From Candidatus Thioglobus autotrophicus (lineage in GTDB: Bacteria > Pseudomonadota > Gammaproteobacteria > PS1 > Pseudothioglobaceae): a DNA stretch of 64,000 nucleotides. Under the pieces are notes generated by a model. It saw only the letters and a program-made list of their open reading frames with translations. It was not told where the DNA came from and searched no databases. This document shows, piece after piece, positions 52,185 through 53,825 of this stretch (position 1 is its first letter; every line of letters begins with the position of its first letter). A program made the translations under genes and the position numbers. Location of the stretch: positions 744,001 through 808,000 of the forward strand of contig NZ_CP010552.1 in assembly GCF_001293165.1 (NCBI RefSeq), given 5' to 3'.

Positions 52185-52212
52185 TTGACATATTATGATT
52201 TCATGATATAAT
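52185..52212 (+). promoter_or_regulatory. Near-consensus sigma-70 promoter
   Basis: TTGACA (52185-52190) and TATAAT (52207-52212) are both perfect hexamers with a 16-bp spacer. Transcription should start near 52219-52220, exactly at the 5' side of the hairpin at 52220-52275. It is the strongest-looking promoter in the window. Confidence 0.85.
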
Positions 52213-52219
52213 AGTTCAC

Positions 52220-52275
52220 ATGTCGGCACTCTCCCCCAAGAATTATTCTCTCCTCAAGAGATAAGGTGTCGACAT
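52220..52275 (+). ncRNA. 5'-terminal structured leader with C-rich motifs
   Basis: ATGTCGGCAC (52220-52229) pairs fully, with one G-U, with GTGTCGACAT (52266-52275). The 36-nt interior contains TCTCCCCCAAG and TTATTCTCTCCTCAAG. An inner stem CTCT/AGAG extended by TTAT/ATAA exposes a CCTCA loop. It starts at the predicted +1 of a strong promoter and ends 23 bp before the ATG of the small secreted protein. It may be a leader element or yield a separate small RNA. Confidence 0.6.
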
Positions 52276-52298: not shown

Positions 52299-52544
52299 AT
52301 GAAAACAATTTTAAACATTCTTGCCTTGACAACACTACTTGCAACCAACGTTGCCGCTGAAGTGTCAGTGCCTTATGGCGTGTTTAATCCGTTAGCCATG
52401 TTTGAGCAGTCAGCACACCAACAAGCACACCAGACAAACTCAGCGTTTTACAACTACGGCAATCAAAGTTATGACTTTGTGGTCAATGCGACGCCAGCGC
52501 TAGCACCTAAAGTACCAACGCAGTTAGCAAGCTTAGAGCGTTAA
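52299..52544 (+). CDS. Small secreted protein (81 aa)
   Basis: A signal peptide (MKTILNILALTTLLATNVAA) precedes a mature part of about 60 residues. It is rich in Ala, Asn, Gln, His and Tyr (SAHQQAHQTNSAFYNYGNQSYDF), with a proline/alanine tail and no cysteine. I recognise no family. A near-consensus promoter and structured leader suggest high, possibly regulated, expression. A sulfur-globule-type envelope protein is a speculative option. It converges on the next gene with a 3-bp gap. Confidence 0.72.
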   Translation: MKTILNILALTTLLATNVAAEVSVPYGVFNPLAMFEQSAHQQAHQTNSAFYNYGNQSYDFVVNATPALAPKVPTQLASLER

Positions 52545-52547
52545 GCG

Positions 52548-52943
52548 TTAGTAGACAACTGCTGCGTTAATAGCCACTGTGCTAGGCATAACTAGCAAAT
52601 CACTTTTTACTCGAATTTTAAGATAATCTTGGGTTGGCTCGTTGAGCATTCGGGCTGTAAAGGTGTTGTTTTTGTAGGATAGTTTGACTCGATATCCTTT
52701 AAGTACCTTTGCCACTTCTTTTTGATAGCTTACATTCCAACATCTAGGTTTGCCAGAATCACAGGGTGTTGCTACTTTTTTCAAGGTGTAGTTCATATAA
52801 ATTGGCTCAATGCCTATTACATCTGCCTTAATGACTTCAGTGGTATGATTAGTGGCCGAGGCGCCACCGATTAAGGTGAAAAATAAGAGGACAATGGTGG
52901 CAATTTTTTGAGCAGGGAATAACCGTGTTGACTTTTTTAACAT
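52548..52943 (-). CDS. Secreted YcfJ/17-kDa-antigen-like protein lacking the glycine zipper
   Basis: The 131-residue product has a signal peptide (KIATIVLLFFTLIGGASA). ADVIGIEPIYMNYTLKKVATPC and the C-terminal GYRVKLSYKNNTFTARMLNEPTQDYLKIRVK then follow. These two blocks resemble the start and end of YcfJ/UmoD-like envelope proteins, which normally have a glycine-zipper membrane segment between them; here it is missing. Two cysteines (C-x6-C) could form a disulfide. Function unknown; upstream AT-rich DNA could hold divergent promoters. Confidence 0.65.
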   Translation of the reverse strand: MLKKSTRLFPAQKIATIVLLFFTLIGGASATNHTTEVIKADVIGIEPIYMNYTLKKVATPCDSGKPRCWNVSYQKEVAKVLKGYRVKLSYKNNTFTARMLNEPTQDYLKIRVKSDLLVMPSTVAINAAVVY

Positions 52944-53018
52944 TAGTTGTTAGGCCTTTTTTGTAAAAATAATCATAAACTATATTATATATTTATAATA
53001 TTATGGTATAATAATAAA

Positions 53019-53130
53019 CAGAAGATCATTTTATTCTCTCCCCCGAGATACATATTTAATGATTTTCTATTAGGTAGTCGTTTTTTTTATTCTCCTCAAG
53101 TTTAGTTAGGCGGCTACCTCCTCCTCAAGA
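53019..53130 (+). ncRNA. Candidate structured small RNA with repeated C-rich loops
   Basis: An extended -10 (TGGTATAAT, 53004-53012) predicts a start near 53019. Hairpin 1 pairs GAAGATCATT (53021-53030) with AATGATTTTC (53058-53067) and loops out TTATTCTCTCCCCCGAG. Hairpin 2 pairs AGGTAGTCG (53072-53080) with CGGCTACCT (53111-53119), each with one G-U, and loops out TCTCCTCAAG (53091-53100). A third CTCCTCAAG lies at 53121-53129. No -35 or terminator is clear. On the other strand the same bases would be a purine-rich leader for the gene at 52548-52943. No gene is seen in the rest of 52944-53267. Confidence 0.5.
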
Positions 53131-53267
53131 TTTATCCCCTTATTTGCGTGCCATGATATACACTTGCAACAGCTTTGCAATACTATCATTAGAGCATAAT
53201 TTTATGATATTGTTATATTACTAAAATTTAAAGTGTTTAAGTGCAGACGGTAGCTGTATTTAAGCGA

Positions 53268-53825
53268 TTAATGCAGTGTTTCTGGGCTGATGTAGTCCTG
53301 CTTAGAAGGTTGTAATGTCTCTTGAATTAGTAGTGTTCCCATGCGTACAAACTCGATGATTTCATTTAAATCTTGCGCATTTTGTTCAGTATCGATCAAA
53401 TCGGCATCGAGTTGAGAAATTTCAGAAAAATCCTTGATCATTTCAAGTGCATCTTCATCTGTGGTTGAGATCTTTTGCAGTCCTAATCCAACTAAATAAC
53501 CTTGGCACCATTCAATTAAGGTATTAGCCTGCTCGCCCAATCGAGCGTCCTCATCAGCAATGAGTAGTTGAAAATCAAGGGTTGCATCATTAAGCTGAGA
53601 GAGGGTTTCATTAAAGATTTGAGCTAAGGCTTCATGCGCTGATTTTTCATTAAGATTGGTGAGATCAATGCTTACCAAAACCTCATTCAGCCAATCGTCT
53701 AAGTTAAGCTCGGGCCTGACACAGGCAAAGCCACACAAAATTCCGTGCGCACTAGAGATGGTGTCATCGGTATTGAGATGATGTAGGGTTGACTTAAGTT
53801 CGTCGTAGTCTAGTTGATCATTCAT
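53268..53825 (-). CDS. ygfB: UPF0149 family protein (YgfB-like)
   Basis: A 185-residue acidic helical protein. The N-terminal DELKSTLHHLNTDDTISSAHGILCGFACV and the later EWCQGYLVGLGLQ are the UPF0149/YgfB hallmarks. Its role is not firmly known. It follows pyrB's start on the minus strand, being upstream of pyrB with a 4-bp overlap in reading order (pyrB lies at higher coordinates and reads into it). Confidence 0.85.
   Translation of the reverse strand: MNDQLDYDELKSTLHHLNTDDTISSAHGILCGFACVRPELNLDDWLNEVLVSIDLTNLNEKSAHEALAQIFNETLSQLNDATLDFQLLIADEDARLGEQANTLIEWCQGYLVGLGLQKISTTDEDALEMIKDFSEISQLDADLIDTEQNAQDLNEIIEFVRMGTLLIQETLQPSKQDYISPETLH

Follow-up and report, generated by a model that had tools for sequence, protein, structure and literature searches.

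Candidatus Thioglobus autotrophicus carries a structured element, designated E1, next to ygfB and a second element, E2, about 750 bp upstream of it; the two are probably sibling plus-strand small RNAs (sRNAs) that act in trans by covering ribosome-binding sites. The host genome is complete (1,512,449 bp) and belongs to the SUP05/Candidatus Thioglobus group, and both elements lie in the 64,000-nucleotide stretch analyzed here (the window, to which all coordinates refer). A first-pass annotation of this DNA had described E1 correctly but missed E2, which is the better supported of the two.

The extended -10, the two stems and the three pyrimidine motifs that the first-pass annotation had assigned to E1 were each recovered at the coordinates it gave. 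The extended -10, TGGTATAAT, occupies 53004-53012 of the plus strand with a predicted start near 53019, and a TRTGRTATAAT-like box precedes stem 1 in nearly all loci. Stem 1 consists of 10 bp, including one G-U pair, between AGAAGATCAT (53020-53029) and ATGATTTTCT (53059-53068). It belongs to hairpin 1 (53020-53068; stem 53020-53030/53058-53068 in the fold), in which a small apical hairpin, UCUC-UCCCCC-GAGA (53035-53048), holds a C-rich loop at 53039-53044; the pyrimidine motif inside loop 1 is TTATTCTCTCCCCC. Stem 2, 9 bp with one U-G pair, is formed by AGGTAGTCG (53072-53080) and CGGCTACCT (53111-53119) and closes hairpin 2 (53072-53119), whose large loop displays UUCUCCUCAAG (pyrimidine motif TTCTCCTCAAG, 53090-53100). 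The pyrimidine tail CCUCCUCCUCAAG (53117-53129) is mostly unpaired in the fold and free beyond the end of the stem, and it contains the third anti-Shine-Dalgarno-like motif, CTCCTCAAG (53121-53129). The plus strand was predicted to fold at -29.2 kcal/mol (z = -5.1), a value equaled by none of 200 shuffled sequences. The ygfB/UPF0149 gene (53268-53825, minus strand; PF03695, E 1.7e-30) is convergent to E1 and adjoins it at every E1 locus, serving as a syntenic anchor.

A covariance model detected E1 in 26 of the 83 Thioglobaceae genomes, and relatives of the same family were also matched by DNA search. Over 17 E1 loci, mean pairwise identity was 84% at the plus-strand -10 compared with 54% upstream of it, and reached 98% both in hairpin 2 and in the tail (53120-53130); the outer flanks and a 22-nt spacer showed 36-54%. 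The conservation footprint of E1 is bounded by the promoter and the tail. The tail degenerates in loci L016-L020, i.e. outside g1/g6/g8/g10. At one of these (L016, genome G016) a microsatellite-like CTCTTT expansion has replaced the third anti-Shine-Dalgarno motif and is still composed of pyrimidines only.

Among 24 distinct E1 sequences, 98.1% of pair cells were standard. Seven pairs were changed on both sides, compared with 1.3 in shuffles, none of 500 of which reached this count, and all slid registers were worse; the alignment behind these seven pairs was fitted to the covariance model. An independent MAFFT alignment gave 97.1% standard cells and three double-changed pairs, a number reached by 11 of 500 shuffles. 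The covariation of E1 is carried by few divergent sequences, as in L013, L015 and L019, where GGTAGTCG/CGGCTACC is replaced by GGTGGTCG/CGGCCACC. The first-pass annotation had made its structured RNA depend on compensatory changes in relatives, and double changes are indeed present in both E1 stems: helices 1 and 2 of hairpin 1 include such pairs, and hairpin 2 has three, with 99.5% of its cells paired.

The strand of E1 had been left uncertain, the concern being that the minus strand would supply a purine-rich leader for gene B (52548-52943, minus strand), an open reading frame for a small exported-like protein. The plus-strand reading is backed by the conserved extended -10, by an intrinsic terminator 3′ of E1 in one relative (L020; most genomes have none at this position) and by the asymmetry between G-U pairs on the plus strand and A-C cells, 52:9 for E1, although these cells are not independent. 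The conservation of E1 structure is thereby supported as following the plus strand. The concern was nonetheless justified in part. A promoter scan identified a minus-strand promoter, TTGCAA-N16-TATCAT, just to the right of E1 and 5′ of gene B (53153-53180; -35 at 53180-53175, -10 at 53158-53153, predicted start near 53146). Its identity over the 17 loci was 98% in the -35, 88% in the -10 and 67% in the spacer, and the form TTGCAA-N16-TATNAT was seen at the majority of E1 loci that have gene B, as well as at L017 and L018, where gene B is missing. This promoter would give gene B a leader of about 200 nt, antisense to E1 over its whole length. That predicted overlap makes E1 a candidate for regulating gene B in cis, and the gene B mRNA a candidate sponge for E1.

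It might be argued that the conserved element is itself the minus-strand 5′ leader of gene B, with purine-rich GGA/Shine-Dalgarno-like motifs (GAGGAGGAGG, GAGGAGAA and GGGGGAG) acting in cis or binding a protein such as CsrA. This explanation is very unlikely, since the structure is poor on the minus strand (fold z = -1.1, in addition to the G-U asymmetry and the conserved plus-strand -10 given above) and E1 persists in L017-L020, L158 and L160, all of which lack gene B. Moreover, the CsrA profile (PF02599) had no match in this 100% complete genome, in which control profiles were detected. A CsrB/RsmZ-type CsrA sponge on the minus strand was ruled out by the same result.

E2 was found at 52185-52275 by searching for the loop of E1. 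Its plus-strand promoter, TTGACA-N16-TATAAT with a TG before the -10 (52185-52212), agrees with the sigma-70 consensus at 12 of 12 positions. The hairpin downstream of it has a 10-bp stem, ATGTCGGCAC/GTGTCGACAT (52220-52229 with 52266-52275), around a C-rich loop (fold z -3.9) that contains the motif UCUCCCCC (52230-52237) and an inner hairpin, UCUCUCCUCAAGAGA (52247-52261). Over 41 matches, which include one weak second match, 12 of 15 pairs were double-changed (55 cells versus 12.6 in shuffles, reached by 0 of 500), and the proposed register surpassed all slid registers. Within the stem proper, 9 of 11 pairs covary around a nearly invariant C-rich loop. An alignment that was not fitted to the model retained seven double-changed pairs (24 cells versus 7.0 shuffled). 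The ratio of plus-strand G-U to A-C cells was 23:4, again from non-independent cells and in the same direction as for E1.

E2 was present in 40 of 83 Thioglobaceae genomes and in 10 of 11 genera, a wider spread than that of E1. The match in genome G075 (E 6.7e-4) looks spurious because the promoter is missing. Among 274 genomes sampled from the class, none outside the Thioglobaceae contained E2, the two matches obtained both being Thioglobaceae. Exact loop matches in viral contigs were either inside a phage protein gene (L054) or lacked the E1 structure, and phage-borne copies were dismissed, the matches being taken as coincidence. E2 persists in genomes of 1.0-1.2 Mb assembled as a single contig, sizes that agree with those given for the clam symbionts Ca. 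Vesicomyosocius and Ca. Ruthia (PMC3202245). In the four smallest genomes the promoter box and the CUCUCCUUAAGAG loop are retained and the C-run is lost. E2 and E1 are tandem neighbors in three genomes (G024, G035 and G025); genes A and B separate them in Ca. T. autotrophicus and its nearer relatives. One genome, G032, has two E2 loci on different contigs (L136 and L014), one of which resembles the genus of the window with a gene B that is 71% identical; a mixed assembly or a true duplication are both possible.

Gene A (52299-52544, plus strand), an open reading frame for a small signal-peptide-like protein, lies directly 3′ of E2. Its position raises the possibility that both elements serve downstream plus-strand genes in cis, as leaders or attenuators, in which case E2 would be the hairpin in the leader of gene A. 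Here E2 stops 24 nt short of the gene A ATG, has no intrinsic terminator and would read into the gene. In g4, however, a hairpin and T-run follow the E2 hairpin at a distance of about 40-85 nt in 7 of 7 loci read, differing in sequence from one another (CCCCTGCCTTGGCAGGGG-TTTTTTTT in L144, for example), and there is no gene A. Since the intrinsic terminator ends it there, E2 in the g4 genomes read is a predicted standalone gene of about 100 nt. Gene A was present at g1/g6/g8/g10 loci and was not detected at the g2, g4, g5, g7 and g11 loci examined; g2 and g11, like g4, thus showed E2 with no gene A detected, and the distribution of gene B parallels that of gene A. Neither gene had a Pfam match. 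Furthermore, gene A offers no clear Shine-Dalgarno sequence for E2 to mask, and the open reading frame list contained nothing convincing on the plus strand between E1 and the convergent ygfB. Together these observations make the cis-leader interpretation highly improbable. A recognizable Shine-Dalgarno sequence is likewise missing from gene A in several relatives.

Small RNAs that act in trans would here have to do so without Hfq. The Hfq profile (PF17209) was not found in 82 of the 83 Thioglobaceae genomes, including that of Ca. T. autotrophicus itself, and control profiles were detected. The single exception was L165 in G095, on contig C421 of a 550-contig assembly.

The purine complements of the exposed motifs were enriched in ribosome-binding windows, with 14 occurrences of GAGGAG against 0.5 expected and six of GGGGAG against 0.28. 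Such enrichment upstream of starts is common to any Shine-Dalgarno complement and shows suitability, not use. When duplexes were predicted for 249 conserved start-region pairs, strong sRNA matches were no more frequent than with shuffled segments, and no target is claimed because the counts did not exceed those of the shuffles. The strongest single prediction for E2 was an Fnr/Crp-type regulator (L182:9340, -29.7 kcal/mol), of which no orthologue was found in 400 kb of G012 or 920 kb of G003. The best conserved match for loop 1 of E1 was nrdA (-23.4 in both species), and a DctP transporter protein gene was among the attractive single duplexes. For loop 2 of E1, the search of this genome for a specific long target returned nothing beyond a 3-mismatch site. 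A 44-aa open reading frame in G017 (L075 1366-1520, minus strand; AAACTTGAGGGGAATAAAAAATG), some 500 bp away from E1, has a start region that complements loop 2 near-perfectly; this region may be either a target or a duplicated fragment.

Given that no base-pairing target was significant and that Hfq is missing as a pairing helper, the C-rich loops could instead bind a protein, either Rho, through YC-rich rut-like sites, or a pyrimidine-binding chaperone, and the elements could be decoys or Rho-dependent end signals. YC dinucleotides are abundant in every exposed motif. A simple rut site is nevertheless unlikely because E1 and E2 have dedicated conserved promoters and E2 has intrinsic terminators in g4, and the motifs are close to Shine-Dalgarno complements, as in known sRNAs. 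Overall, protein binding is considered quite unlikely.

Structured RNA found near ygfB-type genes in many gammaproteobacteria is 6S RNA. This identity was rejected for E1, the only match of the genome to 6S RNA (RF00013) being elsewhere (588332-588514). Neither E1 nor E2 matched any Rfam family by cmscan at gathering or relaxed thresholds, in agreement with the first-pass suggestion of a cuckoo-like RNA in a lineage with no known family of this type. A limited search of the open-access literature likewise returned no description of sRNAs from the SUP05/Thioglobus group. We class E1 and E2 as two new families within a known kind of sRNA, nearest by proposed mode of action to cuckoo/ar14 and Yfr1 and members of neither.

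The cuckoo/ar14 RNAs of alphaproteobacteria (NfeR1, CcsR) share with E1 and E2 anti-Shine-Dalgarno loops, a sigma-70 promoter, sibling copies and the expectation of masking ribosome-binding sites (PMC10746234, PMC3927594, PMC7143759), and their combination of variable stems with constant anti-Shine-Dalgarno loops is also that of E2, where the 9 of 11 double-changed stem pairs surround the nearly invariant loop. In ar14 members two to four hairpins each display an identical CCUCCUCCC in the loop (PMC10746234, PMC3927594). That exact 9-mer is absent from E1 (loops UCCCCC and UUCUCCUCAAG) and E2 (UCUCCCCC and CUCCUCA); E1 has three differing motifs, one of them outside a hairpin, E2 has two motifs in one hairpin, and both belong to another lineage. 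Yfr1 of cyanobacteria, 54-69 nt in length, exposes ACUCCUCACAC single-stranded between two stem-loops (PMC2190773), and resembles E1 and E2 as a small, widely conserved marine sRNA of streamlined genomes with an ultraconserved CUCCUCA core (PMC2190773, PMC6778093). In E1 and E2, by contrast, the motifs occupy hairpin loops or a tail and have the sequence CUCCUCAAG, which together with the lack of an Rfam match places them outside Yfr1. AbcR1 and AbcR2 of rhizobia are similarly a pair of sRNAs encoded in tandem within a single intergenic region, and they carry CU-rich anti-Shine-Dalgarno motifs (PMC7143759). Unlike E1 and E2, which differ in architecture and occur where Hfq is absent, the AbcR RNAs bind Hfq and are mutually homologous. 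The class of Hfq-dependent trans-acting sRNAs is ill-suited to the present pair for the same reason, the 82 of 83 genomes without the protein.

We therefore favor, as the probable explanation stated at the outset, a model in which E1 and E2 would each be transcribed in this organism from their own sigma-70 promoter. E1 would display UCCCCC, UUCUCCUC and CCUCCUCCUC, and E2 would display UCUCCCCC and CUCCUCA. Because they are complementary to Shine-Dalgarno sequences, a generic complementarity, the pyrimidine loops would pair with these sequences in target mRNAs and block ribosome binding, so that the effect on the targets would presumably be repression. E1 and E2 would act in trans without Hfq, and the gene B mRNA may titrate E1 in this genome since its predicted leader is antisense to E1. 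A more elaborate proposal, which we advance tentatively and think rather unlikely, is an Hfq-free circuit in which the two anti-Shine-Dalgarno sRNAs rival ribosomes on many mRNAs, the head-on leader of gene B, made from the conserved minus-strand promoter, serves as a perfect, full-length antisense sponge of E1, and one member has been kept in obligate endosymbionts with genomes of about 1 Mb.

Sulfur and nitrogen cycling in oxygen-minimum waters is driven by the SUP05/Thioglobus group, which also nourishes vent mussels and clams. Two sRNA genes in a lineage that lacks Hfq provide a direct test case for base-pairing regulation in Hfq-less gammaproteobacteria and for the persistence of an sRNA in an endosymbiont that loses most of its other genes. 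The covariance models make E1 and E2 findable in existing metatranscriptomes.
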